Of a stretch of 64,000 nt of DNA, positions 1-60,036 are shown piece after piece. Under the pieces are notes generated by a model. That model saw only the letters and a list, made by a program, of their open reading frames with translations, was not told the DNA's origin and did not search any database. Source of the stretch: Bacillus niameyensis (lineage in GTDB: Bacteria; Bacillota; Bacilli; Bacillales; Bacillaceae_C). The position numbers and the translations under genes are program-made. Location: the NCBI RefSeq assembly GCF_001375535.1, contig NZ_LN831197.1, positions 325,150 through 389,149 on the forward strand, in the 5' to 3' direction. Position 1 is the stretch's first letter. Every line of letters begins with the position of its first letter.

Positions 1-22
1 CAGAAAGAACATCTGCTTAATA

Positions 23-233
23 AGAAAAGCGAAAGCGCCCGTTTAGCGACGTAGAAACTTTAAGGGAAGGATGAATGGCTAAAGACGCGCCGTCCTGGCG
101 CAACGCCATTCTGACCAACGTCCTGTTGGCCTGAGATAAAGGAAACACGAAGAGTCCGGCAGGACGAATCGATGTTGACTTATCGTAGGAAGGAGCGTAG
201 AAGTTTCCTAGTCGCTGGGCGCTGTAGCTAGAC
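23..233 (-). repeat. Dispersed intergenic repeat, full copy (reverse)
   Basis: A roughly 210-base element that recurs, mostly in the opposite orientation, at 14644, 30361 and 54271, with shorter variants elsewhere. Read on the minus strand it begins near AGCGACTAG and ends near GTACGTCGC-type sequence, giving imperfect inverted ends. Inside are two hairpins, at 115-129 (stem CCAAC/GTTGG) and 87-101 (stem GCGCC/GGCGC). Both show loop AGGAC on the minus strand. Any reading frame across it is non-coding, because the same frames appear in every copy regardless of strand or context. Confidence 0.85.
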
Positions 234-235
234 AA

Positions 236-328
236 AGAAAAGCGAAAGCGCCCGTTCAGTGACGTAGAAACTTTAAGGTAAGGATGAATGGCTAAAGACG
301 CGCCGTCCTGGCGCAACGCCATTCTGAC
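236..328 (-). repeat. Dispersed intergenic repeat, truncated copy
   Basis: A second copy lies head-to-tail behind the first. It repeats the same right end (GCGCCC, GACGTAG, AACTTTAAG) and the GCGCC-AGGAC-GGCGC hairpin. The homology stops abruptly at about 328, before the CCAAC hairpin. The sequence that follows is unrelated, so the copy has lost about half its length. Confidence 0.8.
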
Positions 329-362
329 AGGAAATTTGTGAGTAGTCGCACGGCTTGCATAA

Positions 363-402
363 AAAGGCTAGGTTTTCCTTTTGGGGATCCTAGTCTTTTT
401 TT
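363..402 (+). terminator. Intrinsic terminator of an upstream gene
   Basis: The stem GGCTAGG pairs with CCTAGTC and is followed by seven T residues. It lies on the plus strand before lonB. By synteny with Bacillus the gene upstream of the window would be clpX, but that gene is not visible here. Confidence 0.6.
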
Positions 403-439
403 GTTTCAATAATAATATATAAGAGACACAAAAATGGTG

Positions 440-469
440 GTTTATTACCTTTCAGTGACGGAGATACTA
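440..469 (+). promoter_or_regulatory. Sigma-F-type promoter for lonB
   Basis: GTTTA at 440-444 and GGAGATACTA at 460-469 are separated by 15 bases. Both match the sigma-F consensus (GYWTA, N15, GGNRANANTR) at every constrained position. This is visible in the sequence. That lonB is a forespore sigma-F gene in B. subtilis is prior knowledge. The start codon lies 40 bases downstream, which leaves room for a normal leader. Confidence 0.75.
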
Positions 470-508
470 TGATTAGCGAACGAAGGTCTTCGGGAGGGGT
501 AATTAATT

Positions 509-2170
509 ATGAATTGGACAGTAATAGCATTAATGATTCAACTATTTTTTGGTATTGTCATTGGACTTTATTTTTTTAATCTATTAATGAATCAACGTTC
601 TCAGAAAGTAACCATTGACAAAGAATCAAAAAAAGAAATGGAACAGCTTCGGAAAATGAGAGGGATTCGCTTAACGGAGCCATTAGCTGAAAGGGTAAGA
701 CCTGCGAGCTTTTCCGACATTGTTGGTCAGGAAGATGGAATTAAAGCTTTAAAGGCGGCGCTTTGTGGTCCTAATCCACAGCATGTGATCATATATGGAC
801 CACCGGGAGTTGGAAAAACAGCTGCAGCAAGGTTAGTTCTTGAAGAAGCGAAAAGAAATCAACGCTCCCCATTCCAGTCTGATTCTGTTTTTGTGGAATT
901 AGATGCAACGACAGCAAGATTTGATGAAAGGGGAATTGCTGATCCGCTTATAGGATCTGTTCATGACCCTATTTATCAAGGTGCTGGTGCGATGGGGCAA
1001 GCTGGAATTCCTCAACCAAAACCAGGTGCTGTTTCTAATGCACACGGTGGTGTACTTTTCATTGATGAAATTGGGGAATTACACCCGATTCAAATGAATA
1101 AATTATTAAAAGTTTTAGAAGATCGTAAAGTATTTTTTGAGAGTGCTTATTATAGCTCGGAAAACTCACAAATTCCGGCTCATATTCACGATATTTTCAA
1201 ACGTGGTTTACCTGCGGATTTTCGAATGATTGGTGCAACAACAAGGACACCGAATGAGATTCCGCCTGCGATCCGTTCTCGCTGTCTAGAAGTATTTTTT
1301 AAGGAATTAGAGAAAGATGAAATTGAAATAGTGGGTAAAAAAGCAGTTGATAAAATCCAGTTTTCTATCAGTGATAACGGTCTATCGATTTTATCTTCCT
1401 ATGCAAGAAATGGCCGTGAAGCGGTTAATATGATTCAAACTGCCGCTGGTCTAGCTATTACAGAAAACAGAAGCTATGTTGAAGATAATGATATTGAATG
1501 GGTTATTAGGTCAAGCCAACTTGTTCCACGGCACGAAAAAATGATTCATGATAAATCAAAGCCAGGAGTTGTAAATGGATTAGCAGTAACTGGACCGAAT
1601 AGTGGGATGCTATTAGATATTGAAGTGATAGTTCTCCCAGCAGACAAGGGCTCAATCCAAATCACAGGTATCATTGAGGAAGAAAGCATTAATGGTCAAG
1701 GGAAATCGGTGAAAAGGAAAAGTATGGCGAAAGGGTCTGCGGAGAACGTCATTACAGTATTAAAAACAATGGGCGTTCCAGCCAGCCAATATGATATTCA
1801 TGTCAATTTTCCAGGTGGAATTCCAGCCGATGGTCCTTCAGCTGGAGTAGCAGTGGCCGTAGGGATTTATTCTGCTATTTATAAAATACCTATTTATCAT
1901 ACTGTAGCAATGACAGGAGAAATTGGTATTCATGGTGATGTTAAGCCTGTCGGAGGTGTATACACTAAAGTAAAAGCTGCAAGAAATGCAGGAGCAAAAA
2001 CGGTTCTTATACCTAGTGAGAACATGCAATCGAATTTAAAAGAGATTGAAGATATACAGGTCATTCCAATTAAGCGTTTAGAAGAGGCGCTAGAGGTAGC
2101 CCTCGTGAGAAGTCAGAGTCATGATATTATACTCCCTGGATTTCCAGAACAAAGTAAAAAAAGTGTTTAG
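509..2170 (+). CDS. lonB: ATP-dependent Lon-type protease LonB
   Basis: A 553-residue AAA+ serine protease. An N-terminal membrane segment at about residues 5-27 replaces the LAN substrate domain of LonA. The Walker A motif GPPGVGKT is at 97-104, a Walker B motif (VLFIDEIGEL) lies near 180-190, and the catalytic serine sits in PADGPSAG at about Ser444. Length matches B. subtilis LonB (about 552). The start ATG follows GGGAGGGG with good spacing. It is preceded by a sigma-F promoter, which fits a forespore-specific, membrane-associated protease. lonA follows after 211 bases, so the two are probably separate transcription units. Confidence 0.96.
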   Translation: MNWTVIALMIQLFFGIVIGLYFFNLLMNQRSQKVTIDKESKKEMEQLRKMRGIRLTEPLAERVRPASFSDIVGQEDGIKALKAALCGPNPQHVIIYGPPGVGKTAAARLVLEEAKRNQRSPFQSDSVFVELDATTARFDERGIADPLIGSVHDPIYQGAGAMGQAGIPQPKPGAVSNAHGGVLFIDEIGELHPIQMNKLLKVLEDRKVFFESAYYSSENSQIPAHIHDIFKRGLPADFRMIGATTRTPNEIPPAIRSRCLEVFFKELEKDEIEIVGKKAVDKIQFSISDNGLSILSSYARNGREAVNMIQTAAGLAITENRSYVEDNDIEWVIRSSQLVPRHEKMIHDKSKPGVVNGLAVTGPNSGMLLDIEVIVLPADKGSIQITGIIEEESINGQGKSVKRKSMAKGSAENVITVLKTMGVPASQYDIHVNFPGGIPADGPSAGVAVAVGIYSAIYKIPIYHTVAMTGEIGIHGDVKPVGGVYTKVKAARNAGAKTVLIPSENMQSNLKEIEDIQVIPIKRLEEALEVALVRSQSHDIILPGFPEQSKKSV

Positions 2171-2264
2171 ACTATTTTTTAAGATAAGTCCTGTTTCTCG
2201 ACAGCCTCTATTAAGTAAGATAAAATGAAAAAAGTTAATAATAAGCAACATGTTTTATTTAGTT

Positions 2265-2283
2265 AGCGCCCCAATAAGGCGCT
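2265..2283 (+). terminator. Hairpin after lonB, possibly repeat-derived
   Basis: AGCGCC, seven loop bases, then GGCGCT followed by TTCGCTTTTC. The T-tract is interrupted, so it is a weak terminator by sequence. The right arm and its flank (GGCGCTTTCGCTTTTCATTG) match the edge sequence of the dispersed repeats seen at 14820 and 30370, so this looks like a remnant copy. Confidence 0.5.
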
Positions 2284-2381
2284 TTCGCTTTTCATTGTCT
2301 AACTACGGTAATTAGAAGCAGTGGCCAAATTCGCTTTATGTAACTATGTCGTAGTTAACGTCAAATGGAGGTAGGAATTTT

Positions 2382-4706
2382 ATGAAGAAAAAAACAGAGC
2401 CATTGGTACCATTATTACCACTTAGGGGGATGCTCGTTTTCCCAACAATGGTGCTTCATTTAGATGTCGGTAGGGAGCGCTCCATACAAGCATTGGAACA
2501 GGCGATGATGAATGATCATTTAGTATTTCTAACAACACAAAAAGATGTTTCCGTTGAAATGCCTAGTGAAAATGATCTCTATGAAATGGGGACTTTAACT
2601 AAGGTTAATCAAATGCTGAAACTTCCTAATGGTACAATTCGAGTACTTGTTGAAGGAATAAGTCGAGCAAAGATGAAAAGCTTTGTTGACCAGGGGTTAT
2701 ATTTCGCCACAAGCCTTGAAATATTTGAAGACGATATCGAGCAAGACGTTGAAATTGAGGCGTTAATGCGCACGATGCTAGAATACTTTGAGCAGTATAT
2801 TAAGCTCTCAAAGAAAATATCTGCTGAGACTTTTGCTACAGTTGCCGATATTGAAGAGCCAGGCAGAATGGCTGATCTAATAGTGTCTCATTTGCCGATG
2901 AAAATACAAGATAAACAGGCCATTCTCGAATTGGTAGATGTTAAAGCACGCCTTGGCAAGGTCATTAAAATTATTCATAACGAAAGAGAAGTGCTTAATC
3001 TAGAGCGTAAAATTGGTCAAAGAGTTAAACAGTCAATGGATCGTACTCAAAAAGAATATTTCTTACGGGAACAAATGAAGGCTATTCAAAAGGAATTGGG
3101 CGACAGTGAAGGCAAGACAGGGGAAGTTTCTGACCTAGCGCAAAAAATTGAGGATGCGCAAATGCCAGATCATGTTAAAAAAGCTGCATTTAAGGAATTA
3201 AATCGTTATGAAAAAGTACCTTCTACATCTGCAGAAAGTTCGGTTATCCGAAGTTATATTGATTGGCTTATATCACTACCTTGGAAAAAGTCAACGAAAG
3301 ATGATTTGAACATTCATAAAGCAGAGAAAATATTAGAGCGGGATCATTATGCACTTGATAAAGTAAAAGAGCGCGTGCTTGAGTATTTAGCAGTTCAGCA
3401 GCTTACGAAATCATTACGGAGCCCGATCCTATGTCTTGTTGGACCACCAGGAGTTGGAAAGACCAGCCTTGCTAGGTCAATCGCAACATCAATGGGAAGA
3501 AATTTTGTTCGTATTTCTCTTGGGGGTGTAAGAGACGAGTCAGAAATCCGAGGACACCGCAGGACCTACGTAGGGGCAATGCCTGGGAGAATTATTCAAG
3601 GAATGAAAAAAGCAGGAACGATTAATCCTGTATTTTTACTTGATGAGATCGATAAGATGTCCAATGATTTCCGTGGGGACCCATCATCAGCAATGCTAGA
3701 AGTATTAGATCCTGCACAAAACAGTTCGTTTAGTGATCATTATATTGAAGAGACTTACGATCTTTCGAAGGTTATGTTTTTAGCGACGGCAAATGATTTA
3801 GCATCTATTCCAGGGCCATTACGGGATCGTATGGAGATTATAACGATTGCAGGCTATACGGAAATAGAAAAAATTCATATTGCGAAGGATCATTTACTAC
3901 CAAGGCAAATTATTGAACATGGCTTGACGAAAAGCCAATTACAAATGAGAGATGAAGCCATTAAGATGCTTGTTCGCTATTATACTCGTGAAGCGGGTGT
4001 GCGCGAGTTGGAAAGACAATTGGCGTCAATTTGTCGAAAGGCAGCAAAAATTATAGTTTCTGGTGAAAGAAAAAGGGTCGTTGTAACCGAAAGCTACTTA
4101 GAAGACCTAATTGGAAAGAAAAAGTATAGCTATGGACAGGCCGAATTAGAAGATCAAGTCGGAGTGGCAACCGGATTAGCTTATACAACGGTCGGCGGGG
4201 ATACTTTGCAAATAGAGGTTTCTTTATCACCTGGAAGTGGAAAACTCATTTTAACAGGTAAATTGGGAGATGTGATGAAGGAATCGGCTCAGGCTGCTTT
4301 TAGTTATGTCCGCTCGAAAGCAGAGGAACTTCAACTAGATAAAAACTTCCATGAATCATGTGACATTCATATTCATGTTCCTGAAGGAGCTGTACCGAAG
4401 GATGGCCCATCAGCAGGGATTACTATAGCAACGGCTCTAGTATCTGCATTAACAGGACGTGCCATCCGAAAAGAGGTCGGAATGACTGGAGAAATTACAT
4501 TACGAGGTCGAGTTTTAGCTATTGGGGGCTTAAAGGAAAAATCATTAAGTGCTCACCGCGCAGGACTAACGACAATTATTTTACCAAAAGAAAATGAAAA
4601 GGATATTGAAGATATCCCTGAAAGTGTTCGTCAAGATCTAACATTTGTACCGGTTTCCCATATGGACAAAGTTCTTGCAACTGCACTTGTGGAGGAATCA
4701 AAATGA
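2382..4706 (+). CDS. lonA: ATP-dependent protease LonA
   Basis: A 774-residue cytosolic Lon protease, the length of the B. subtilis protein. It has an N-terminal LAN substrate-recognition domain (about 8-200), a coiled-coil linker, an AAA+ domain with Walker A GPPGVGKT at about 354-361, and a C-terminal S16 protease domain with catalytic Ser677 in PKDGPSAG. The lysine partner lies about 43 residues later. It degrades unfolded and regulatory proteins. The start ATG follows GGAGGTAGG. The stop overlaps the engB start by four bases (ATGA), indicating translational coupling. Confidence 0.98.
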
Positions 4707-5284
4707 AAGTAAATAATGCTGAACTAGTTATTAGTGCTGTAAAACCAGAGCAATACCCGAGTGAAAATCTCCCGGAGTTTGCATTAGCAGGAAGATCCAA
4801 TGTTGGAAAATCATCATTTATTAATAAAATGATTAATAGAAAAAGTTTAGCCAGAACTTCTTCTAAGCCGGGAAAAACTCAAACTTTAAACTTCTATAAA
4901 ATTGAGGAATCATTATATTTTGTTGATGTCCCAGGATATGGGTTTGCAAAAGTTTCCAAAAAGGAACGTGAAGCATGGGGGAATATGATCGAAACTTATT
5001 TTACGACTCGAAAAGAGCTCTGTGCTGTTCTGTTAATTGTCGATCTTCGCCACCCCCCAACTAAAGACGATGTCTTAATGTATGACTTTTTGAAAGCTTA
5101 TCAATTACGTTGCCTTGTCGTCGCCACAAAAGCTGATAAAATTCCTAAAGGAAAATGGGAAAGACATCGACAAATAGCGATTCAAACACTTGACTTAGAA
5201 CAAAATGATGATTTAATTGTCTTTTCATCGGAAACTGGTGAGGGAAAAGATAAAATGTGGAAAATATTAAGTAGTTGGATGTAA
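4703..5284 (+). CDS. engB: Ribosome biogenesis GTP-binding protein EngB (YsxC)
   Basis: A 193-residue TrmE-Era-EngA-like GTPase needed for 50S subunit assembly. The G1 motif GRSNVGKS is at 30-37, G3 is DVPGYG and G4 is TKADK. It overlaps the lonA stop by four bases, the usual Bacillus arrangement. A strong bidirectional hairpin follows the stop codon. The product is essential in B. subtilis (family knowledge). Confidence 0.97.
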
Positions 5285-5285
5285 A

Positions 5286-5318
5286 AAGAGGCTTCCGTAT
5301 TCTTCGGAAGCCTCTTCC
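5286..5318. terminator. Bidirectional intrinsic terminator
   Basis: AGAGGCTTCCG pairs with CGGAAGCCTCTT around a seven-base loop. It has A residues on the left and T-rich sequence on the right, between the convergent ends of engB and the minus-strand membrane gene, so it can serve both. Confidence 0.8.
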
Positions 5319-5330
5319 GTAATTAGACTC

Positions 5331-5816
5331 TTATTTTCTTTTTGCAATAAGTAGGTATACCCCCGCGACAATTAGCAAATAGGGCCATCCCTTTTCTATT
5401 ATGGAAAGGTTATTTATGTAATGGGCAGACCAACTTTGTATTTTATCTAAAAATAACAATAGGATGGATGACACTAGGAAAAGGATTCCTTGAAATAGAC
5501 CATTTCCGGTTTTGATATTTTTAAGTAATAGGCCGACAGCGATTAATAATAAAAAAATACCAATATAATTCGGCCACACTTCTAAACGATTAGCAACGTG
5601 GAAATGAAATCCTATTCCTGTTAAAATAACTCCTGGCAGTATCATTTCATATTCTTTGCCTAAATATCCATTTATTAAAAAGCCCAATCCAATAATGACT
5701 AGCAAGGTCGGCCATGTGTAAAAGTTGTCAAATGGGGAAAGCTGATATTGTTGTAAAAGAAAATAGCCACCAAATCCTAAAGCAACAGTTCCTGAAAAAT
5801 AAGATGTTTTATTCAA
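5331..5816 (-). CDS. Membrane protein with LiaI/LiaF-type transmembrane region
   Basis: About 161 residues with five to six hydrophobic segments and no soluble domain. Repeating patterns of the type YxWPxxLLxxGxxxL and LGxGF resemble the DUF5668 / LiaF N-terminal transmembrane family. The position between engB and hemA corresponds to a small unknown gene in B. subtilis (perhaps ysxD). I prefer the TTG at 5816, which has AGGTG nine bases upstream. An in-frame GTG at 5828 would overlap that site and add four residues. The function is unknown; a role in envelope stress sensing is only inference. Confidence 0.8.
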   Translation of the reverse strand: MNKTSYFSGTVALGFGGYFLLQQYQLSPFDNFYTWPTLLVIIGLGFLINGYLGKEYEMILPGVILTGIGFHFHVANRLEVWPNYIGIFLLLIAVGLLLKNIKTGNGLFQGILFLVSSILLLFLDKIQSWSAHYINNLSIIEKGWPYLLIVAGVYLLIAKRK

Positions 5817-5920
5817 GAGAGTATACACCTACCACGTTTTTAAAGTTCTACATATAAATCATCGGAATTTATTCTTATTTACTAAATATAGCACAGGTTT
5901 CAACATCTGTTCACATCTTA

Positions 5921-5951
5921 TTAGAATTCTTCTAATTTAGAGTGGTATAAT
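5921..5951 (+). promoter_or_regulatory. hemA promoter with PerR-like box
   Basis: An extended -10 (TGG then TATAAT, 5946-5951) lies 38 bases before the hemA start. Just upstream, the 15-base palindrome TTAGAATTCTTCTAA (5921-5935) matches the PerR box TTATAATNATTATAA at 11 of 14 defined positions, with arms TTAGAA/TTCTAA. It would cover the -35 region. In B. subtilis the hem operon is repressed by PerR, which makes the reading plausible. Confidence 0.65.
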
Positions 5952-5988
5952 GGATAAGAGCAATTAATTCTGGAGGTGCCCTTTTAAA

Positions 5989-7329
5989 ATGCACATCATA
6001 GTTGTCGGATTAAATTACAAGACGGCTCCAGTAGAGATTAGGGAACGCTTGGCCTTTGCAGAAGATACTTTACCCTCTGCAATGGTAACCTTAAATCATA
6101 AAAAGAGTATTCTTGAAAATGTTATTGTATCGACATGTAATCGAACAGAAGTTTATGCAGTTGTTGATCAAGTGCATACAGGTCGTTATTATATAAAGGA
6201 ATTTTTATCTGAATGGTTTCAAATGGATCCGTCGGAGTTTGCAAACCACTTGTATATTCACGAAAAAGAGGCTGCGACTCAACATCTTTTTCAAGTGACA
6301 TGTGGTTTGAATTCCATGGTTCTTGGAGAAACGCAAATTTTGGGACAAGTAAGAACTAGCTTTTTACTTGCACAAGAAAATGGTACAACAGGTACTGTTT
6401 TTAATTATTTGATGAAACAAGCTATAACATTGGCAAAACGAGCTCATTCAGAAACGGATATAGGTGCAAATGCGGTGTCTGTTAGTTATGCGGCAGTGGA
6501 ATTAGCTAAGAAAATATTTGGGCAGTTAAATGACAAGCGTATTCTCGTTATCGGTGCGGGAAAAATGGGTGAGCTTGCCATTAAAAATCTTTATGCAAAT
6601 GGAGCTAACAAAGTTACGGTTATTAATCGGACTCTGGAAAAAGCACAGTCTCTTGCAAATCAATTTCAAGGATCTGCTAAATCGCTAGCAGAGCTCCAAT
6701 GTGCCATAATGGATTCAGATATTGTGATTAGTTCAACAGGTTCACGTGGTTACGTGATTGAGAAAGATATGTTAAGCGATATGGGGAAAATGCGTAGGGG
6801 AAAACCGTTGTTTCTATTAGATATTGCTGTCCCAAGAGACCTTGATCCTGCTATAGCAAATTTAGACAATGCCTTTTTATATGATATTGATGATCTAGAA
6901 GGTATTGTTGAAGCTAACATGGCTGAGCGAAAGTTGGCTGCTGATCGGATTATGGAAATGATTGGTGAGGAACTCGTAACCTTTAGAGAGTGGCTTAATA
7001 CTCTTGGAGTTGTCCCAGTTATTACAGCTTTAAGAGAAAAAGCTCTTACGGTACAAGCGGAAACAATGAAAAGTATTGAACGAAAGTTACCGAATCTGTC
7101 TGATAGAGAGAAAAAGGTTTTAAATAAGCATACGAAGAGCATTATTAATCAACTATTAAAAGAACCCATTCTTCAAGTGAAAGATATGGCTAGTGAGCCG
7201 CATGCTGCAGAAAAGATCGCCCTTTTTAAAAAAATATTTGATTTGGAAGAAGGAGATTTTGAAAAAAGCGGATTTACAATAGCTGAAAAAGAAATGCCCA
7301 AACAATCCTCACCGCTTTTTCAATCTTAA
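5989..7329 (+). CDS. hemA: Glutamyl-tRNA reductase
   Basis: A 446-residue enzyme that reduces glutamyl-tRNA to glutamate-1-semialdehyde with NADPH, the first committed step of C5 heme synthesis. The nucleophilic Cys50 lies in STCNRTEVY. An NADPH-binding VIGAGKMGE motif follows near residue 190, and a C-terminal dimerization helix domain completes the protein. The ATG follows GGAGGTG. It is the first gene of hemAXCDBL. HemA is usually feedback-controlled through proteolysis and HemX (family knowledge). Confidence 0.98.
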
Positions 7330-7341
7330 GAGGATAAAAAT

Positions 7342-8169
7342 ATGTTGGATATGCTAATGGTGAGATTGCCGGAATTAATTATTGTCATTTATGCGATCTC
7401 GATCTTATGCTATTTTATTGATTTTATTGGTGAAAATCGGAAGGTTAATCGGCTTGCCTTCCGACTACTTTCAATTGTTTGGGTACTTCAAACAATTTTT
7501 TTGTTTTTCTATATGTATAAAACAGGAAGGTTTCCGATCTTAACGTTATTTGAGGGCTTATATTTTTATTCTTGGGTGTTAATCTCTCTATCCCTTGCGA
7601 TCCATAAGATTTTAAACGTTGATTTCACTATATTTTTTACCAATTTGATAGGTTTTACCATAATGGCTATTCATGCCTTTGCACCGGGACAAGTTCCTGC
7701 TATGGCCGATCAGTTAATTTCGGAATTACTATTTATTCATATTACGATGGCAATCCTATCGTATGGAGCATTTTCATTGTCATTTGTTTTTTCAAGTCTA
7801 TATTTATTACAATATAGACTATTAAAAGAAAAAAAATGGCAGAAAAATGTTTGGCGTTTAAGTGATTTAGCGAAACTTGAAAAGCTATCATTTATATTAA
7901 ACACTATTGGTGTCCCGATGTTATTGTTAAGTTTGATTCTTGGTCTACAATGGGCATTTATCAAACTCCCATTCTTTCACTGGAATGATCCCAAAATTAT
8001 TGGATCTTTTCTTTTGATTATTATTTATAGCTTAATTCTTTTTATGCGAATCAAAAAGGGATTATATGGAAAACAATTGGCTATCTGGAATTCAGCCGCA
8101 TTTTTAATATTATTAATTAATTTCTTTTTGACTAGCCGTTTATCTACTTTTCACATTTGGTTTGAATAA
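7342..8169 (+). CDS. hemX: HemX, CcsA-like membrane protein
   Basis: A 275-residue integral membrane protein with about eight hydrophobic helices, related to the CcsA/HemX cytochrome-c assembly family. It carries a family-typical WGAF-like region, here [17 protein letters not shown]. In B. subtilis HemX lowers the cellular HemA level. It begins 12 bases after hemA with AGAGGAT as ribosome site, so it is clearly part of the operon. Confidence 0.93.
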
Positions 8170-8191
8170 AACTTTTTCAGGAGGCGTGAAA

Positions 8192-10910: not shown

Positions 10911-10927
10911 TAAGGGTGGTCAGTTGA

Positions 10928-12217: not shown

Positions 12218-12234
12218 TAAAAAATGTCCGATGC

Positions 12235-12301: not shown

Positions 12302-12347
12302 GTAATTGACCGACATTTTTTCATTGGAACGAAAGGAGGAAATCATC

Positions 12348-14620: not shown

Positions 14621-14643
14621 TTATTTATCTAACTACAGTCGGC

Positions 14644-14830
14644 AGCGACTAGCGAACTTTCAGCTTCTTCCTACGTTAAGTCAACATCGGCTCGTCCCTC
14701 GCCGTGTTTCCTTTATCTCAGGCCAACAGGACTTTGGTCAGAACGGCGTTGCGCCAGGACGGCGCGTCTTTAGCCGTTCATCCTTAATCCAGAAAGTTTG
14801 TACGTCGCTAAACGGGCTCTTCAGCTTTTC
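14644..14830 (+). repeat. Dispersed intergenic repeat, full copy
   Basis: A forward full-length copy. It has the left end AGCGACTAGCGAACTTTCAG, a core with CCAAC-AGGAC-TTTGG and GCGCC-AGGAC-GGCGC hairpins nested in AACGGC/GCCGTT, and the right end GAAAGTTTGTACGTCGC. The ends are imperfect inverted repeats of one another. It is directly followed by a second copy. Confidence 0.85.
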
Positions 14831-14976
14831 ATTGTCTAGCTTCAACGCCCAGCGACTATCAAACTTTCAGCTTCTTCCTACGATAAGTCAACATTGGCTC
14901 GTCCCTCGCCGTGTTTCCTTTATCTCGTCAGAAGCTTAGAAAGTTTGTACGTCGCTAAACGGGCTCTTCAGCTTTT
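14831..14976 (+). repeat. Dispersed intergenic repeat, internally deleted copy
   Basis: A tandem second copy with both ends intact (AGCGACTATCAAACTTTC and GAAAGTTTGTACGTCGC). The whole hairpin core between TTTATCTC and AGAAAGTTTG is missing and replaced by about ten bases. The pair shows the element exists as long and short forms. Confidence 0.85.
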
Positions 14977-15168
14977 CTATATCCACTCATAATGAAATCC
15001 AAGGGCAATTGCAATGAAAATGGCAAGTAATAATACATCGATTGTAGTAGGAAAAATAAAAGTTCGAATTGCTTGGAAAATACAAAAAGGGATGATTAGT
15101 TGTTTACATACGCCTTTAAAATTCCGTTTCCAATTTTGAAAGGTATGTTGATTAAATTTTCTTTTCAT
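14977..15168 (-). CDS. Small membrane protein of unknown function
   Basis: A 63-residue product starting at the ATG 15168, with GGAGGG six bases upstream; that clear ribosome site is why I trust it. A basic N-terminus (KRKFNQ, KRNFKG) is followed by hydrophobic segments at about 24-40 and 43-60. It lies between the repeats and the valS leader, on the opposite strand. I do not recognize the family. The last codons abut the repeat edge. Confidence 0.65.
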   Translation of the reverse strand: MKRKFNQHTFQNWKRNFKGVCKQLIIPFCIFQAIRTFIFPTTIDVLLLAIFIAIALGFHYEWI

Positions 15169-15287: not shown

Positions 15288-15337
15288 AAATAATAATAAA
15301 GACATGTTTAAATGCATTGACAGGGAAAGTACATTAG

Positions 15338-15565
15338 AAAATTGCTTTAAAGAGAGGGAAATCATTGGTGGGAGGTTTCCTAAGCAGAGCTAATGGAAAG
15401 TCACCCTTGAGCAGCTTTCGTGAAAATATTCAGTAGCGAAAAGCCGGTTTGAAGCCGTTATGAAGTTAAGTGCCGAACTCTACTATTGATTTGAATGTAG
15501 GTTCGTGTAAAAAGGTGGTACCGCGAATCAACTCCCTTCGTCCTTTTGACGGAGGGATTTTTTTA
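15338..15565 (+). promoter_or_regulatory. T-box leader of valS
   Basis: Stem I starts at about AAAGAGAGGG, with the K-turn motif AGAGA. The specifier loop 3' strand reads GAAAGTCA, putting codon GTC (valine) at 15400-15402 followed by the usual purine. The T-box AGGTGGTACCGCG is at 15513-15525. A terminator stem (CCCTTCGTC/GACGGAGGG, then a T-run) ends near 15565. Uncharged tRNA-Val should stabilize the antiterminator and allow valS transcription. The architecture is seen directly; the mechanism is family knowledge. Confidence 0.93.
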
Positions 15566-24210: not shown

Positions 24211-24342
24211 GCTGGATCAAGCTCCAGCGACTAGCAGACTTTCGAGTTTTTCGAAAGTAAAAACAGACACTTCCTACAGGATCCATTTTTACTTTATATC
24301 GTTATAGAACTAAAAAGTTTGTACGTCGCACTTGCACTTTTC
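24211..24342 (+). repeat. Dispersed intergenic repeat, short variant
   Basis: The left end AGCGACTAGCAGACTTTC (24226) and right end AAAAAGTTTGTACGTCGC flank a core unlike that of the full copies. In its place is a local hairpin ACTTTCGA/TTCGAAAGT. It sits inside the mreB-mreC interval. Confidence 0.75.
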
Positions 24343-29233: not shown

Positions 29234-29336
29234 GTTAGTTTGTAGCACCCGTGCTACAACCGCACATACCAGGTTGAAAAGCTCCAATAACTGGACACCT
29301 GTCTATGGCGAGTCTGAGTCTAATAAGGAGGTGCAA
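29234..29336 (+). promoter_or_regulatory. L21 ribosomal protein leader
   Basis: The 5' untranslated region of rplU is about 105 bases. It starts with the hairpin TGTAGCAC/GTGCTACA and has further pairable segments (CCAGGTTG, CCAATAACTGG, CACCTGTC). It matches in position and general form the L21 leader of Bacillota, thought to mediate autoregulation. I could not fold it computationally. Confidence 0.75.
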
Positions 29337-30360: not shown

Positions 30361-30596
30361 AACGAGCGTCTTCCGCTTTTCGTTGTCCAGCTCAAGCCGC
30401 CCAGCGACTAGCAAACTTTCAGCTTCTTCCTACGATAAGTCAACATCGGTTCGTCCTGTCGGCCTCACCGTGTTTCCTTTATCTCAGGCCAACAGGACGT
30501 TGGTCAGAACGGTGTTGCGCCAGGACGGCGCGTCTTTAGCCGTTCATCCTTATTGTAAAGTTTGTACGTCGCTAAACGGGCGTCTTCCACTTTCTG
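30361..30596 (+). repeat. Dispersed intergenic repeat, full copy
   Basis: A full forward copy with edge GCTTTTCGTTGTCCAGCTC and left end AGCGACTAGCAAACTTTCAG (30403). The hairpins CCAAC-AGGAC-GTTGG (30489-30503) and GCGCC-AGGAC-GGCGC (30517-30531) are perfect. The right end is AAAGTTTGTACGTCGC. It separates the rpmA terminator from spo0B. Open frames across it match those in the other copies and are not genes. Confidence 0.87.
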
Positions 30597-47363: not shown

Positions 47364-47413
47364 TTTCTAAGTAATTAATTCAGTTGAGGAAGTTCAACCA
47401 TAGAGGAGTACGC

Positions 47414-48322: not shown

Positions 48323-48371
48323 AACGAAATAGGCGCTTATGTATAATAAGTTAGTCTAAAGAGGTGATCAG

Positions 48372-51235: not shown

Positions 51236-51246
51236 TTACAATTGGA

Positions 51247-51287
51247 GGCTGTCCTAATTCTGCAAACTGTGCAGAATTAGGACAGCT
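51247..51287 (+). terminator. Hairpin terminator after apt
   Basis: GCTGTCCTAATTCTGC pairs perfectly with GCAGAATTAGGACAGC around a short loop. The T-tract is short (TTTGCTGTTATT), but stem strength is high. Confidence 0.75.
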
Positions 51288-51314
51288 TTGCTGTTATTCG
51301 TGACTGCGTAAGAT

Positions 51315-51393
51315 CAGCGCTTAGCAACCTTTTTTGATAACTCAACTTCACGTGCTTCCTATACCTAGAAGCTTAAAAGTCTTGTACAACGCT
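51315..51393 (+). repeat. Degenerate dispersed repeat remnant
   Basis: AGCGCTTAGCAACCTTTTTT at the left and AAAAGTCTTGTACAACGCT at the right are decayed versions of the ends of the dispersed repeat. The order and inverted relation are kept, the core is absent. It lies between the apt terminator and relA. Confidence 0.55.
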
Positions 51394-51422
51394 AAACAGT
51401 TGCCACTGATTTTCTTATAAGT

Positions 51423-51451
51423 TTGACATTTTTAGATAAAAAAATTATCTA
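51423..51451 (+). promoter_or_regulatory. Candidate relA promoter with palindrome
   Basis: TTGACA (51423-51428), 16 bases, TTATCT (51445-51450). A perfect inverted repeat TAGATAA-N5-TTATCTA (51433-51451) covers the spacer and -10. It may be an operator or simply an AT-rich cruciform. Confidence 0.45.
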
Positions 51452-51531
51452 AACCTTTACAAGTTTGTCATCATTCTCGATAATAGATATTAATACTATG
51501 TTTCGAAATTTTTTTTTAAAAGGTGATCCTC

Positions 51532-53721: not shown

Positions 53722-53732
53722 GGGGTTTAGGA

Positions 53733-54170
53733 ATGAAAGTAGTTTTGCAAAGAAGCAAGGAAGCAAATGTAAAAGTTAATGATAAGATTGTTGGTAAGAT
53801 CGATCATGGATTTGTCTTGCTTGTCGGCTTTACTCATGGTGATACGACGGATGCTTGTGATTGGTTGAGTGATAAGATAGTAAATTTGCGTATATTTGAA
53901 GATGAGAATGAGAAAATGAATCACTCTTTATTGGATAAAGGTGGTTCGATATTGTCGATTTCACAGTTCACTCTTTACGGAGATTGTCGAAAAGGCCGAC
54001 GCCCAAATTTTATGGATGCGGCCAAACCTGACGAGGCAGAGCGATTATATGACTATTTTAATCAATCCCTTAGGGAAAAAGGGGTTCATGTGGAGACAGG
54101 AATTTTTGGTGCGATGATGGATGTATCATTAGTAAATGATGGACCTGTTACGTTAATGTTAGAAAGATAA
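53733..54170 (+). CDS. dtd: D-aminoacyl-tRNA deacylase
   Basis: A 145-residue enzyme that removes D-amino acids from mischarged tRNAs. It starts [15 protein letters not shown] and carries [10 protein letters not shown] and the GPVT motif (NDGPVTLML) near the C-terminus, which form the active site. It is co-transcribed with relA, as in B. subtilis (yrvI). Confidence 0.97.
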
Positions 54171-54174
54171 TAAA

Positions 54175-54208
54175 AAACCTGGTGATAACTTAAATCACCA
54201 GGTTTTTT
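54175..54208 (+). terminator. Intrinsic terminator after dtd
   Basis: AACCTGGTGAT pairs with ATCACCAGGTT across about seven bases and is followed by TTTTTATTTATTT. It ends the relA-dtd unit. Confidence 0.88.
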
Positions 54209-54270
54209 ATTTATTTGTTAAGCGTACTATAAAATTGGATGCTTTGTATAAGTTATAACGTTATGCGTAC

Positions 54271-54450
54271 TCATCCAGCTCCAGCGTATATCGACTTGCA
54301 AACCTCTAAGCTTCTTCCTACGATAAGTCATCATCGGCTCATACTTCCTTTATCTCAGGCCAACAGGATGTTGGTCAGAACGGCGCGTTTTTAGCCGTTC
54401 ATCTTTAATATAGAAGTTTGTATGTCGATGGGCAATGCGCTTGCGCTTTT
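54271..54450 (+). repeat. Dispersed intergenic repeat, partial copy
   Basis: A forward copy. The hairpin CCAAC-AGGAT-GTTGG is at 54360-54374, but the GCGCC hairpin is deleted, leaving AACGGC-GCGTTTTTA-GCCGTT. Ends are AGCGTATATCGACTTGCAAAC and AGAAGTTTGTATGTCG. It lies between the dtd terminator and the end of the amidase gene. Confidence 0.8.
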
Positions 54451-54455
54451 GTTTT

Positions 54456-55724
54456 TTAATTACCAAAGTATTGATTAATTCCTTCTAAAATCGCATTCGC
54501 TACTTTTTCCTGGTATTGAACAGACTTTATGATTTCTTCTTCATGCGGGTTACTTAAATAGCCTAGTTCGAGTAGGACAGATGGTTGAGTATTTTCTCGC
54601 AGAACATAATAATCTCCAAATCGAACCCCGCGATCAGAGATCATAACAGCATCTGTAATGTTGTTATGGACTGCTTCTGCTAGCTTTTGGTCCCGGTCAT
54701 GATAATAGTAGGATGTATGTCCTTCCACCTCATTATTATCAATGCTATCGTAGTGTAAACTTATGAAAGCATCTGCTCCGCTTATTTGAGCTTGTTTGGT
54801 TCTTTCCTCTAAACTAATATATTCTTCTGTAGATCGCGTTAAAATGACATTATAACCAGCTTTGTTTAGTTTTTTAGCTAATGTATTACCGATCCTTAAT
54901 GTTAAATCCTTTTCAAGCACTCCGCTTGTACCGGTTGCACCTTGATCACGCCCACCATGGCCCGGATCAATGACGATTGTTTTGGCACCATCATACTCTT
55001 TAAAATTATTTATTTGTCCAGCCTGATTCGCTGAAACGATCCAGCTAGCAACATATCCAGTTTTTCCAGGGGAGTATTCAATTTTAAACCAATCTCCATC
55101 TTTTTCTAGTACGGTGAAGATATCCCCAGATGAAGCTTGTTTAACAATTTTTGATTTTAATGTCGGTTTTTTTCGGATATTTGTCGCATCATATAAAATA
55201 TTAATTTGATTAGGTGAAGAGACTACTGATGACACAGGTTCTGAATTCGAAGTTTCGATATATTGGCTACTTACCCAAGCTACATTTCCATTAAATTCAA
55301 TTTGGCTCCACCCATTGTTATCATCTAGTATTTTAACCCGTTCTCCTTTTTCTAGTGTACCTACTTTTGAACTTGTCGAACTTGGCTCTGAACGGACATT
55401 TAAAGAACTAGCAGATACTGTTCCGCTAGTGGTTGAGCTAGAAGTAATTGTTTGTTTGTCCACAAGCCAACCAGCTACCCAGCCTTCTTGACCAGAAGGT
55501 AATTTAATTTGATACCATCCATTTTCTACACTTACTACTGGATAGGTTTCGCCTTTTCGAACTTGGGTAACTATGGAATAAGAAGTATCGGGTTTTTCCC
55601 TAACATTGACAATTTCACCTGTTACAATAACTGATTCTGAATCAGCAGAAGTATTTGGTGAGTAGTAAATAATCATTGTAAGTAATAATGTTATGACTGC
55701 AAACAGGATAAAACGTTTTTTCAC
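54456..55724 (-). CDS. yrvJ: Secreted N-acetylmuramoyl-L-alanine amidase with SH3 domains (YrvJ-like)
   Basis: A 422-residue exported wall hydrolase. The signal peptide is at about 1-27. Three bacterial SH3 domains follow (about 31-93, 98-162, 172-232), each with a VREKPD, VRSEPS or IRKKPT start. The Amidase_3 domain (about 247-422) carries zinc ligands in DPGHGG, EKDLTLRIG and LHYDS and the catalytic Glu in LLELGYLSN. The gene is monocistronic on the minus strand. Confidence 0.93.
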   Translation of the reverse strand: MKKRFILFAVITLLLTMIIYYSPNTSADSESVIVTGEIVNVREKPDTSYSIVTQVRKGETYPVVSVENGWYQIKLPSGQEGWVAGWLVDKQTITSSSTTSGTVSASSLNVRSEPSSTSSKVGTLEKGERVKILDDNNGWSQIEFNGNVAWVSSQYIETSNSEPVSSVVSSPNQINILYDATNIRKKPTLKSKIVKQASSGDIFTVLEKDGDWFKIEYSPGKTGYVASWIVSANQAGQINNFKEYDGAKTIVIDPGHGGRDQGATGTSGVLEKDLTLRIGNTLAKKLNKAGYNVILTRSTEEYISLEERTKQAQISGADAFISLHYDSIDNNEVEGHTSYYYHDRDQKLAEAVHNNITDAVMISDRGVRFGDYYVLRENTQPSVLLELGYLSNPHEEEIIKSVQYQEKVANAILEGINQYFGN

Positions 55725-55890
55725 TGCAAAGAAACCGCCTTTCTATTACTTAAGAATCCATTGTATCAATACATTCGAGAGATAATCAATCTACATATTC
55801 GTCAAAATGAAGAAAAATCCTTTTTTTAAATAGAATTTTTAATAAAAGGGAAAGATATGAACAAAACATTTTACTAAAGGAGACTACTTG

Positions 55891-56064
55891 ATGCGAACTA
55901 ACGAGCAGAATCAAACAGCTAATTGCAGTTCAATCCAATTAACTCATATGAATTTGCAAAATAGTCCAGATAATAGCTATATGATGAATATTGATCATTT
56001 GGGGGAGTTTGGGACAACCTCTTCAGAAATTAAGTCAATAAAAAAAAGATTACTTCGTTCATAA
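55891..56064 (+). CDS. Small hypothetical protein, possibly YrzK
   Basis: A 57-residue ORF with AAAGGAG eight bases before ATG 55891. It is polar, Asn/Gln/Ser-rich and ends with a basic KSIKKRLLRS segment; there is no signal or membrane helix. Position between yrvJ and hisS corresponds to the small B. subtilis gene I recall as yrzK, but I cannot confirm homology. The ribosome site and spacing are the main support. Confidence 0.55.
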   Translation: MRTNEQNQTANCSSIQLTHMNLQNSPDNSYMMNIDHLGEFGTTSSEIKSIKKRLLRS

Positions 56065-56068
56065 ACTA

Positions 56069-56097
56069 TTGACAAAGTTTTCCGTTATCCTTATGAT
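56069..56097 (+). promoter_or_regulatory. Sigma-A promoter of hisS-aspS
   Basis: TTGACA (56069-56074), 17 bases, TATGAT (56092-56097), about 60 bases before stem I of the T-box. Confidence 0.8.
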
Positions 56098-56154
56098 ATA
56101 ATAACTAAAATAACTATATTTAGCCAATGATGGAAAAAGTAATTGAGTGCTGAG

Positions 56155-56377
56155 TGTAAAGAGAGGAAATGCCGCGGCTGAAAGCATTTCTACATTGAAG
56201 TTCAATGAAAGACATTCCGTAGGCTTCCACCTCGAACAAATACGTTTTTAGTAGGGGTTGGACGTAATCAGGCGATAACTGTCTAAGTGAAAGTTGTTTT
56301 ACAACTTTAAAAAGGGTGGCACCGCGGGAAATAACTCTCGTCCCTTGTTTTTCGGAACAAGGGACGGGAGTTTTTTT
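56155..56377 (+). promoter_or_regulatory. T-box leader of hisS-aspS
   Basis: Stem I carries the K-turn AGAGA, the helix GGAA (56165-56168) with TTCC (56215-56218), and the specifier loop strand GAAAGACA. By alignment with the valS leader the specifier is GAC (Asp, 56211-56213). CAT (His) overlaps it at 56213-56215. The T-box AGGGTGGCACCGCGG is at 56313-56327. The terminator ACTCTCGTCCCTTG/CAAGGGACGGGAGT is at 56334-56371, with a T-run to 56377. Confidence 0.93.
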
Positions 56378-56402
56378 ATTTTGATTAAAAGGAGGATTAT
56401 AG

Positions 56403-57671
56403 ATGGCTGTTCAAATACCACGTGGAACACAGGATATTCTTCCTGGGGAAGTAGAAAAATGGCAATTAATCGAAGAAACAGCGAAAAAAATGTGTCAGTT
56501 GTATCAATATCATGAAATTAGGACGCCTATTTTTGAACATACAGAGCTATTTCAAAGAGGTGTAGGTGATACAACCGATATCGTTCAAAAAGAAATGTAT
56601 TCTTTTCAGGATCGGGGAGGTAGGGAGTTAACACTGCGACCTGAAGGAACTGCAGCGGTTGTTCGTTCCTTTGCAGAAAATAAAATGTTTGGAAATGCTA
56701 CTCAACCTGTTAAGCTCTATTATCTAGGACCGATGTTCCGCTATGAAAGACCGCAGGCAGGCAGATATCGGCAGTTTGTTCAATTCGGGGTTGAAGCATT
56801 GGGAAGTATGGATCCTGCAATTGACGCAGAAGTAATATCATTAGCGATGGGTATATATCGACAATTGGGATTGAAAAAACTAAGGCTTGTTATTAATAGT
56901 CTTGGGGATAAAGAAAGTAGAGTAGCTCATAGAAACGCATTAATCAATCATTTTCAACCGAGAATTCAAGAGTTTTGTAAAGACTGTCAAAGCAGATTGG
57001 AAAAAAATCCGCTTAGAATTCTTGATTGTAAAAAGGATCATGATCATGAATTAATGGGATCAGCACCTTCCATACTTGATTATTTAAACGAAGAGTCTGC
57101 CCAATATTTTAATAAAGTTAAGGAATACTTAAAGGCAATGAAGATCGATTTCCAAGTTGACTCTACTCTTGTTCGAGGGCTAGATTATTATAATCATACC
57201 GCTTTTGAAATTATGAGTGAAGCAGAAGGATTTGGCGCGATTACAACATTATGCGGTGGTGGTCGTTACAACGGACTTGTGAAAGAGATGGGTGGTCCAG
57301 ATACCCCTGGAATTGGTTTTGCTTTTAGTATCGAAAGATTAATCAGCGCTATGGAAACCGAAGAGGTACAGTTTGAAAGAGAAAATGGTATAGATGCTTA
57401 CATTATCTCGCTAGGTGAAGAGGCAAAAGATTATTCTGTTACTTTACTTGAAGACATGCGCAGGGCAGGATTTTCTGTAGAACGCGATTATATGGATAAA
57501 AAGTTAAAAGCACAATTTAAAGCTGCAGAAAGACTGGGTGCAACGCATTCGATCATAATCGGTGAAGATGAATTGAAAAATGGAATCGTTACAGTCAAAA
57601 ATATGACAACTGGAGAGCAACAGGAATGCTCTTTACAGAATTTTGTTGAAGAATATAGCAAATTAAGTTGA
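56403..57671 (+). CDS. hisS: Histidyl-tRNA synthetase
   Basis: A 422-residue class II synthetase. N-terminal [12 protein letters not shown], motif 2 ([22 protein letters not shown]), the histidine-specific [15 protein letters not shown] and motif 3 [11 protein letters not shown] are present, then an anticodon-binding domain (about 325-422). The ATG follows AAAGGAGG. It is co-transcribed with aspS 16 bases downstream, under a T-box. Confidence 0.98.
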
Positions 57672-57687
57672 TAAAGGGGGAAGTCCT

Positions 57688-59460
57688 ATGTTTGGTAGAA
57701 CCTATTATTGTGGAGAGATAACAGAACAAGCAGTAGGTGAGTCGGTTAATTTAAAGGGATGGGTGCAAAGACGGCGCGATTTGGGCGGACTTATTTTTAT
57801 TGATCTTCGTGACAGAACTGGAATAGTCCAAATCGTTTTTAATCCAGAAGAATCAAAGGCAGCCCTTGAGATTGCAGAAAAGGTACGCACAGAATACGTT
57901 TTGGATGTTCATGGAATCATTGTGAAGCGGAACGAAGGAACAGTGAATCCTAATTTAAAGACCGGAAAAATCGAAGTGATAGTATCTGAGGTTACAATTA
58001 TCAATGAAGCGAAAACCCCTCCGTTTATGATCGAGGATCATACGGATGCTTCAGAAGATATTCGGTTGAAATATCGTTACTTAGATTTACGAAGACAGGA
58101 AATGTTTAATGTCTTTAAACTTAGATCTGACATTACAAAAACGATCCGTAATTTTCTGGATGGAGAAGGGTTTCTTGATATTGAAACTCCGATCTTAACT
58201 AAGAGTACTCCAGAAGGTGCAAGAGATTATCTTGTTCCAAGCCGAATCCATGAGGGAGAATTTTATGCACTTCCCCAATCACCTCAACTTTTCAAACAAT
58301 TATTGATGGTTAGCGGCTTTGATAAATATTACCAAGTGGCTCGCTGTTTCCGTGATGAAGATTTAAGGGCGGATCGTCAACCAGAGTTTACACAAATTGA
58401 TATTGAAGCTAGCTTCATGAGTCAAGATGACATTCGAGTTATGATGGAAAGAATGATGAAACAGATTATGCAAGATACGAAGGGCGTTGAAATTAAAACT
58501 CCATTTCCAGTCATGACTTACGATGATGCGATGGCAAGATACGGTTCTGATAAACCAGACACTAGGTTTGAAATGGAGTTAAAAGATATATCCGAACTCG
58601 TTGCATCCAGTGATTTCAAAGTGTTTTCAGGTGCCGTTGCTAACGGAGGACAAGTGAAAGCTATCGTGGTTAAGAATTCAGCCAATAATTACTCTCGCAA
58701 AGAGATTGATGCTCTTGGAGAATTTGTTTCAGTTTATGGAGCAAAAGGGTTAGCTTGGATGAAAGTTGAGGAAGAAGGTCTCAAAGGACCGATCGCTAAA
58801 TTCTTTACAGACGATAATCAGGTAAAACTACGAGCGGAACTCGGGGCCGAACAAGGGGACCTACTTCTTTTTGTTGCAGATACTAAAAAAATAGTAGCTG
58901 AATCATTAGGTGCTCTCCGCTTAAAACTTGCCAAGGAACTTGGGTTAATTGATCAATCAAAATTTAACTTTCTTTGGGTCGTTGATTGGCCGCTTCTTGA
59001 GTATGATGAGGAGGAAAAACGTTATTTCGCTGCACACCACCCATTTACAATGCCTGCGCGCGAAGATTTGTACAAACTGGAAACAGATCCAGCAAATGTT
59101 CGAGCTCAAGCTTACGATCTTGTATTAAATGGATATGAACTTGGTGGAGGATCTTTGCGGATATTTGAAAGAGATATTCAAGAAAGAATGTTTAAAGTGC
59201 TTGGATTTACTGAAGAAGAAGCAAAAGAAAAATTTGGCTTTCTTCTAGAAGCATTTGATTACGGAACGCCTCCGCATGGGGGAATTGCACTTGGATTAGA
59301 TCGTATGGTAATGCTGCTTGCTGGTCGCAATAGTCTTCGCGATACGATTGCCTTTCCAAAGACAGCTAGCGCCGGTGATTTATTAATGAAGGCACCGGAT
59401 GAAGTAAGCGAAAGTCAGTTAAAGGAACTGCATTTATCTATAGAGAGATCGAAGGTTTAA
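57688..59460 (+). CDS. aspS: Aspartyl-tRNA synthetase
   Basis: A 590-residue class IIb synthetase. It has an N-terminal OB anticodon domain ([20 protein letters not shown]), the catalytic core with motif 2 ([18 protein letters not shown]), a bacterial GAD insert (about 290-420), and motif 3 [21 protein letters not shown] precedes the ATG. It forms an operon with hisS. Confidence 0.98.
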
Positions 59461-59507
59461 TCTGGTAGAAAATGTAAAAACAAGCCTATTTTCCCATTTG
59501 GTTTTGT

Positions 59508-59536
59508 TTGAAAAAAACGTTTTCTTATGTTAGTAT
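59508..59536 (+). promoter_or_regulatory. Promoter of 6S RNA
   Basis: TTGAAA (59508-59513), 17 bases, TAGTAT (59531-59536). The predicted start near 59543 is a few bases before the 5' end of the conserved RNA, consistent with a processed precursor. Confidence 0.65.
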
Positions 59537-59542
59537 TTAAAC

Positions 59543-59742
59543 AACAGGATAAGTCCTGATGTGTTCGTTCTAATACCTTTTCGTTTTGACCGACAAGACA
59601 TAACTTTGGGAGTCTGGAGTTTTCAGACTAAGTGTAAGCCTCCGGTTGAGAGGACACATAAGGCCTGAAGCAAGACACCCACCTGCCAAGAGCGGGATCA
59701 AAACAAAGGATAAACAGACGGCACGATCGGGACTTATCCTAT
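59543..59742 (+). ncRNA. bsrA: 6S RNA (6S-1 / BsrA type)
   Basis: About 195 bases between aspS and tcdA, the same place as bsrA in B. subtilis. The 5' end (GGATAAGTCCTGATGTGTT) and 3' end (GGGACTTATCC) pair to close a long rod, and the start resembles the BsrA 5' sequence. 6S RNA mimics an open promoter and sequesters housekeeping RNA polymerase in stationary phase. The central bubble could not be verified without folding. Confidence 0.9.
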
Positions 59743-59750
59743 CTTCGTTA

Positions 59751-59779
59751 AAAAAACAACCCAATAGGTTGTTTTTTTT
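59751..59779 (+). terminator. Intrinsic terminator of 6S RNA
   Basis: AAAACAACC, loop CAATA, GGTTGTTTTTTT. Confidence 0.9.
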
Positions 59780-59854
59780 ATTGTATAGAAAAATATAAAT
59801 TTGGCGACTGTGGAACTTGCTACAATGGATAGGGCTTCGCGTCTTAAGGAGGCT

Positions 59855-59933
59855 AGCACATAGCGACAATCAAACTTCTCCGCTTTTTTTCTATGATAAG
59901 TAATTAGCTTGGAAGTTTGTTCGACGATGTGCA
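59855..59933 (+). repeat. Dispersed intergenic repeat, short variant
   Basis: The left end AGCGACAATCAAACTTC and right end GAAGTTTGTTCGACGATGTGC are imperfect inverted repeats, extended outward by matching GCACAT arms. Only a short loop with TATGATAAGT remains, so the full element reduces to a long hairpin. It lies between the 6S terminator and tcdA. Confidence 0.75.
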
Positions 59934-60036
59934 AGGCCTGCACATTTGTTCTTTTACATATAAAATCATTGCTTTTTATCGTTTACTTGTTTATTCTGAT
60001 TCAGGGAAGACGTACTTTAAATGTGGAGTTGAACTT

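Follow-up and report, generated by a model that had tools for sequence, protein, structure and literature searches.

We analysed a dispersed family of intergenic repeats in a 64-kb stretch of the Bacillus niameyensis genome (C6:325150-389149, hereafter the window; the genome is a scaffolded 4.68-Mb assembly with runs of N). The copies in the window are probably those of a non-autonomous palindromic mobile element, which occurs either as two arms, L and R (LR), or as the same arms around an inner module, C (LCR). The C module, known from Rfam as Bacillaceae-1 RNA (RF01690), would itself be separately mobile, with several past insertions into LR, other repeats and rRNA spacers. Sequence comparison makes this 'Bacillaceae-1 RNA' part look less like an ordinary small RNA gene than like an independent mobile DNA module that is nested in the repeat.

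Abundance and modular build

The LR unit is about 146 nt long and consists of two arms that form a long imperfect palindrome. In the LCR unit, which measures about 205 nt, the same frame contains the C module, a twin hairpin (~66 nt) that has RTCCT or RTCGT in its two loops. For scanning, the parts were taken to be 38 nt (L), ~70 nt (C) and ~96-104 nt (R) long. With up to three mismatches allowed, the L-end pattern gave 168 matches in the genome and only 3 when read backwards, which puts the copy number far beyond chance. RF01690 has 104 matches in the same genome, 30 of them within two tandem arrays. Its matches number 30 to at least 147 per genome in 12 genomes of the same genus, and it is present in 102 of the 199 sampled genomes of the order.

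The stretches fetched from the B. niameyensis genome contain 92 clusters, arranged as LCR, LR, head-to-tail LRLCR, longer multimers, C alone, CLR, CLCR and others. The left boundary is near-constant, with AAAAG at the start of L in 64 of the 76 clusters that have L as the outer arm; 8 more clusters start with R. The right end is looser and often reads ...GCTAGACAA, after which the L variant of that unit reappears in part. The tandem arrays comprise 10 units of 206 bp, with single-base differences in the first and last units (C6:523579-525784), and 20 identical units of 363 bp (C6:2805084-2813057). Both arrays (loci L031 and L032) may represent a recent real amplification or an artefact of the assembly with its runs of N. 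At C6:850000-862000, 1216488 and 1247358 (loci L076, L078 and L079), five L-like ends, of which the four compared are identical, stand behind what is in each case seemingly the same gene, and these ends apparently belong to a multi-copy element.

The window was searched with nhmmer profiles built from copies of the same genome. The training units included 24-234, 14626-14830, 14833-14977 and 30384-30593, so that the scores of these four are partly circular, whereas the other five window copies are independent. On the forward strand lie a full LCR unit with L arm, C module and R arm at 24..234 (E = 2.4e-62; C module 67-132, RF01690 match 63-129) and, head to tail behind it, a truncated second unit at 237..328 (E = 1e-23), which retains the L arm and most of C (RF01690 276-338, 49 bits). 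These two share one orientation and are reversed relative to all the remaining copies, which lie on the reverse strand. The latter begin with a short-full pair, whose first member is a short LR unit without C at 14833..14977 (E = 1.5e-45) and whose second member is a full LCR unit at 14626..14830 (E = 1.5e-66; RF01690 14723-14789). A decayed LR unit is found at 24218..24340 (E = 2e-10), a full LCR unit at 30384..30593 (E = 1.5e-65; RF01690 30489-30555) with an extra partial L end at 30361-30383, and an LR remnant at 51314..51414 (E = 1.2e-6). The LCR unit at 54274..54450 (E = 8.7e-43; RF01690 54360-54410, 42.9 bits) has lost the inner part of hairpin 1 of its C module, seen as a gap in the alignment. 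Finally, a weak arm remnant stands downstream of 6S RNA at 59855..59941 (E = 0.003 for 59855-59903 and 0.31 for 59908-59941).

The reversed, uncomplemented window gave no match at E<=1 with either nhmmer profile, and a separate repeat-finding run on the window shows the same families. In an Rfam scan, five window copies matched RF01690 with 42.9 to 72.6 bits, above the gathering cut-off of 35 bits, and the C module thus belongs to this family. The same scan found two T-box leaders (15308-15548 and 56118-56348), the 6S RNA (59550-59737) and an L21 leader (29248-29325).

The repeat family is therefore real. Nine of the ten copies listed in the preliminary description were recovered with coordinates within a few bases; the tenth, a remnant near 2265-2300, had no profile match even at E<=10, though end-like letters are visible there by eye. 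The copies are not confined to the window, and their boundaries are conserved. The family was not recognized by name at that time, but its core is RF01690, and LR and LCR copies both occur in Bacillus subtilis (strain DE0224). A 190-bp repeat described with the B. subtilis genome sequence is a candidate for the same family; a literature search brought up no paper on it.

Pairing and settings of the C module

The two arms pair into a long stem. Across 40 LCR and 32 LR units, the stem blocks of L and R change together (GCGCCC/GGGCGC, GGCGGC/GCTGCC and GCGCAT/ATGCGC). LR units also have a covarying inner stem of their own, which speaks for LR as a possibly separate lineage rather than an LCR unit minus both hairpins. 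In the C helices of a 30-module alignment, 14 of the 20 pairs are changed on both sides, and there are 110 doubly changed cells compared with a shuffle mean of 32.3, a value that none of the 500 shuffles reached.

RNA helices selected on one strand are expected to show G-U steps on that strand. The C stems are almost devoid of them. A model built from the 30 C modules gave 165 matches in 100 loci, of which 150 were aligned and 107 were distinct. In a stringent set of 41 of these modules, at most 90% alike in their stems, we counted 637 Watson-Crick, 1 G-T and 2 A-C cells, with 157 double and no single changes; all 107 modules together have 1667 Watson-Crick, 2 G-T and 12 A-C cells. An S-adenosylmethionine (SAM) riboswitch control from 30 best-match loci of the same order contains 771 Watson-Crick, 24 G-T and 2 A-C cells, with 100 double and 23 single changes. 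The difference is significant in Fisher tests (p = 1.4e-5 for G-T alone and 9e-5 for G-T plus A-C). In this comparison the C set, unlike the control, includes own-genome and neighbouring copies besides the best-match loci, and its larger alignment had been fitted to the structure. Without such fitting, the 30-row alignment, to which best-match loci contribute 26 rows, likewise has just 2 G-U pairs in helices 2-4 (p = 4e-4).

The wobble counts for the 41 and the 107 modules omit helix 1 (AGG/CCT, 73% paired in the 30-module alignment) and the terminal pair of helix 2; when the latter is included, helices 2-4 of the 107 modules have 3 G-T and 27 A-C cells. An initial G-T to A-C count on LCR units (101 vs 34) was set aside as inflated by out-of-register columns and by a single fixed G-T pair; the corresponding LR count was 27 vs 29. 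Near-perfect pairing on both strands of C is the expected trace of a hairpin acting as DNA, or of palindromes being corrected as they are replicated; it suggests that the C stems may be under a DNA-level constraint and speaks against C as an expressed, functional RNA. Pairing of an upstream AAGGA with the RTCCT loops was also considered and rejected, as loops that have shifted to RTCGT come with no matching upstream change (by eye).

The settings of C extend well beyond the LR frame. In the B. niameyensis genome it is found inside LR, between 23S and 5S rRNA and in two repeat families, B and E. In a 16S-23S spacer it stands directly ahead of an LR copy, and one neighbouring spacer has LR without C. 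The searched loci contain 194 full-length C modules, a non-random sample (the loci were fetched for their matches) with duplicates included. Of these, 91 are enclosed by LR and share its orientation (mostly at LR position 37-43/50-53), and 5 are enclosed in reverse (two in L232 and one each in L103, L156 and L256). A further 27 border on LR at one side, and 71 have no contact with it. In locus L127 a second twin hairpin is nested inside a C. Outside this genome, in 26 of the 29 best-match loci, each from a different genome, C is found in the settings just named and in further repeats. Single-linkage grouping of 153 distinct flank pairs gave 15 contexts, with 127 pairs in an LR group that is fused with others by composite loci.

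The other repeats that host C can be described as follows. Repeat B (AAACTTCAATCAGTGGGGG...CCCCCACTGATTG ... GGCTGTTGATCCCCCAC; loci L001, L004, L070, L033, L045, L046, L117 and L120) carries C and sometimes an inserted LR or LCR. Repeat E (GAGACTCCTGCGGG...GGAAATCAACC; L037 at ~1733-1815 and 7767-7849, L111, L118 and L100) has C at differing positions and in differing orientations, and in L037 it adjoins a gene that by eye resembles a transposase. Repeat D (CAGATTTT...AAAATCTGGGCGCAAATACGCC; L098, L099, L116, L119 and L121) has C at two positions in different genomes (by eye). Between 23S and 5S rRNA, C is present in several operons (L041 at 1944-2011 and 5652-5719, L042 at 2101-2168), and a partial LR copy lies upstream of a 5S gene of B. 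subtilis, at a contig end (L281, ~3279). An LR copy of Virgibacillus (L276, ~760) contains a possible sister module, namely a reversed twin hairpin with loops other than RTCCT. In or beside C there is also another type of hairpin pair, in which CTAG precedes an RTCCT hairpin (L127 at 1647-1786, L113 at ~1575-1700 and L037 at 1733-1815).

Placement, mobility and rival explanations

The units are placed in a strongly non-random manner. In the B. niameyensis genome, 34 clusters (41 minus 7 duplicates) have an upstream gene on the strand of L; in 20 of them L starts at most 8 nt from the stop codon of that gene, or inside the gene by up to 12 nt, whereas uniform placement predicts 3.2. The named genomes of Siminovitchia, Lederbergia, Bacillus, Virgibacillus and Neobacillus have L within 8 nt of the stop in 18 of 27 clusters, with 2.9 expected, in a count that skipped 63 of 120 clusters (47 without L or R, 15 near an edge and 1 duplicate). 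The R end came within 8 nt of a facing stop in 0 of 44 clusters in the former genome and 0 of 45 in the latter. Of 57 clusters, 31 have a terminator-like hairpin on either strand within 90 nt beyond the R end, against a mean of 11.75 after shuffling, and 16 have one upstream of L (11.15 after shuffling). Taken together, the stop-codon and terminator counts show that LR units tend to sit between a stop and a terminator, with R toward the terminator.

The earlier impression that copies often stand just after terminators thus holds in a sharper form, in which the terminator-like hairpin is the one beyond the R end. Likewise, the copies lie broadly between genes, as had been proposed: of 78 classified own-genome clusters, 2 overlap an open reading frame of at least 90 aa and 3 could not be placed. 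A replication-strand bias of LR clusters was considered and rejected (47 vs 31, with one 0.25-Mb bin of ambiguous skew excluded; binomial p = 0.089).

For four own-genome sites we compared 20 orthologous stretches from genomes of the same genus. Both the L and R arms are present in two of them (L125, where the unit is reversed relative to the gene, and L127), and the other 18 are without both arms. C-like pieces occur in 3 further stretches, and the C model, run on 13 of the 20, also finds modules in L142. A copy of element B without LR (79925) and another with LR (4492672), the only readable pair of this kind, differ by an insertion with 0-1 bp duplicated (by eye). As far as alignments can tell, these patterns of presence and absence fit mobile elements. 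Plasmid and phage collections gave no match at E<=1e-5.

The search for a mobilising enzyme centred on Y1 (HUH) transposases. The B. niameyensis genome has three Y1 genes, two of which are broken; no RTC[CG]T hairpin was found at their loci and no further Y1 match at E<=0.001. Three module-rich genomes have no Y1 match: G084 (at least 24 modules), G095 (21) and G135 (13). The weaker, RAYT-like Y1 matches were examined at just three long-frame loci, where one lone hairpin with an unlike stem was seen, in L294. An origin from a hairpin-bounded Y1 element, namely a palindrome-associated transposable element (PATE) derived from IS200/IS605, was rejected, as no cognate Y1 gene with such bounds was found among the three own and 29 best-match loci. 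No parent transposon with the same ends was found among the listed end-pattern matches (100 of 168) and 20 follow-up stretches, in a search that covered Y1 as the only transposase family.

Several observations weigh against the mobile-element reading. Inspection by eye of 33 units together with their flanks revealed no target site duplication. The inverted ends (the L and R arms pair and covary), the lack of coding capacity and the dispersed copies (92 clusters) are all traits of a miniature inverted-repeat transposable element (MITE) of the DDE type, but without the duplication a standard DDE origin is unsupported. The preliminary description of the repeats as MITE-like stands with respect to size, inverted ends, abundance, intergenic place and insertion polymorphism, and falls short with respect to the target duplication and a transposase-bearing full-length element, neither of which was found. 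At the loci of 29 best-match Y1 genes from other genomes there were 0 RTC[CG]T hairpins in 93.5 kb, compared with 7 in 92.7 kb of control loci. The relatives are mostly ~70-82% identical in coding flanks, which makes base-exact empty sites unreadable and means that diverged copies were possibly missed. Pair types in C are no more numerous than shuffling can account for (27 vs 24.3, reached in 59 of 500). Insertion of C strictly into hairpin loops is not general, as flank complementarity exceeded the 5% threshold at just 2 of the 29 loci. With a mean of -24.9, true C flank pairs gain little in pairing over mismatched ones (-23.2); they are only more structured than random positions (-16.9 kcal/mol). 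Lastly, C in the rRNA spacers could be a functional RNA, and the spacers with and without C, which come from an assembly with runs of N, may contain assembly errors.

Other explanations account for parts of these data. Palindromes might spread without any enzyme, through short homologies (TAAGGA, GAAAAGCG) and template switching at replication, with arrays growing via slippage. In favour of this, insertions often swap a few bases or one arm (LR vs LCR, or the 16S-23S spacer with and without C; by eye). Variable partial L copies behind the R end also agree with this explanation, and correction templated by hairpins would account for paired changes with so few one-sided steps. However, more than 100 dispersed matches, the near-constant AAAAG boundary of L and the strong site preference are hard to obtain via slippage alone, and we consider spreading of this kind unlikely. 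A Y1 transposase, of either the IS200/IS605 or the RAYT kind, might also move the units as REPIN- or PATE-like DNA. Direct-orientation twin hairpins with like loops, insertion without target duplication and the palindromic anatomy are reminiscent of such systems. This explanation is now quite improbable, less firmly so for RAYTs, as neither the 3 own nor the 29 other Y1 loci have the hairpin and three module-rich genomes lack a Y1 match altogether.

Two further alternatives ascribe a function to the transcribed repeats. Selection could have kept LR and LCR as hairpins of the 3' untranslated region (UTR) that protect or end mRNAs. The placement from stop to terminator with L facing the stop, seen in two samples, is in line with this, but both arms are missing from 18 of the 20 orthologous stretches and many copies are decayed. 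Such a role is possible for single copies and is rather unlikely to maintain the family. The other alternative has been proposed for Bacillaceae-1 itself: according to PMC4333381, its reverse-complement strand strongly matches the motif of CsrA and might bind this protein. C would then be a regulatory RNA whose reverse complement, with AGGAY loops, titrates CsrA. The C loops do read AGGAY on the opposite strand, and the rare wobble leans to that strand, given the excess of A-C over G-T on the Rfam strand of the 107 unique modules (12 vs 2). Nevertheless, C is present in 3 of 8 genomes that lack csrA (2, 9 and 6 copies) and in 99 of 191 that have it (Fisher p = 0.49, the 8 genomes being few and their losses possibly recent). 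In addition, own-genome copies in rRNA spacers and behind stops carry the RTCCT strand in sense, and the stems are nearly without wobble on either strand. The CsrA proposal is not favoured by these comparisons and would seem very doubtful.

The mobile element remains the preferred explanation. Its folded DNA, either single-stranded or cruciform, would be recognised by a trans-acting enzyme, insertion would take place beside terminator palindromes without target duplication, and the units would be carried on mRNAs as 3' UTR hairpins. More tentatively, RF01690 as a whole may be a free-standing hairpin DNA parasite of ~66 nt, which has two like hairpins, is recognised and moved at the DNA level by an undiscovered enzyme and lands in or beside other structured repeats (LR units next to terminators, rRNA spacers, other repeat families) or itself; roughly half of the genomes sampled in the order carry it. 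If this is true, an abundant entry of small-RNA catalogues, there an 'RNA of unknown function', is instead mobile DNA and should be counted as a small RNA only with caution, and the mobiliser of structure-bound modules of ~70 nt would be a new enzyme. The presence or absence of G-U steps offers a comparative test to tell RNA hairpins from DNA hairpins. Furthermore, since B. subtilis carries copies, a laboratory strain is available for direct tests of the mechanism.

Comparison with known systems

We file the family as a palindromic non-autonomous repeat with Bacillaceae-1 as a nested module. In contrast to a table of PMC2864571, which lists Bacillaceae-1 (RF01690) as an RNA, it appears here as a module of dispersed repeats, nested, reversible and with a DNA-like Watson-Crick constraint. 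A literature search limited to titles and abstract starts, with subscription papers mostly outside its scope, found no paper on Bacillaceae-1 as part of a mobile repeat.

Among Bacillus repeats, bcr1 of the Bacillus cereus group is given as a MITE-like repeat of 167 nt in a table of PMC2267715; compared by description only, it and LR/LCR are both MITE-like Bacillus repeats of similar size. Table 3 of the same paper has Bhal-1, with 74 nt and 36 copies in B. halodurans, whose size and structure could fit the C module, a lead that likewise comes from the description only. The family also resembles REPINs and RAYT-linked repetitive extragenic palindromes, as described in PMC3116915, in being palindromic, extragenic, abundant, miniature and non-autonomous. 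Unlike REPINs, LR and LCR units are longer and modular, with no Y1 link in the loci checked. Pneumococcal BOX elements, as described in PMC3049150, consist of boxA, a variable boxB and boxC, form a stem-loop and include repeats inserted into one another. With architecture compared rather than sequence, LCR is similar to BOX in that two end modules flank a variable inner module, in the stem-loop and in the nesting of repeats. It differs in that C is also found outside the LR frame, in rRNA spacers and other repeats, whereas the inner modules of BOX occur in tandem runs.

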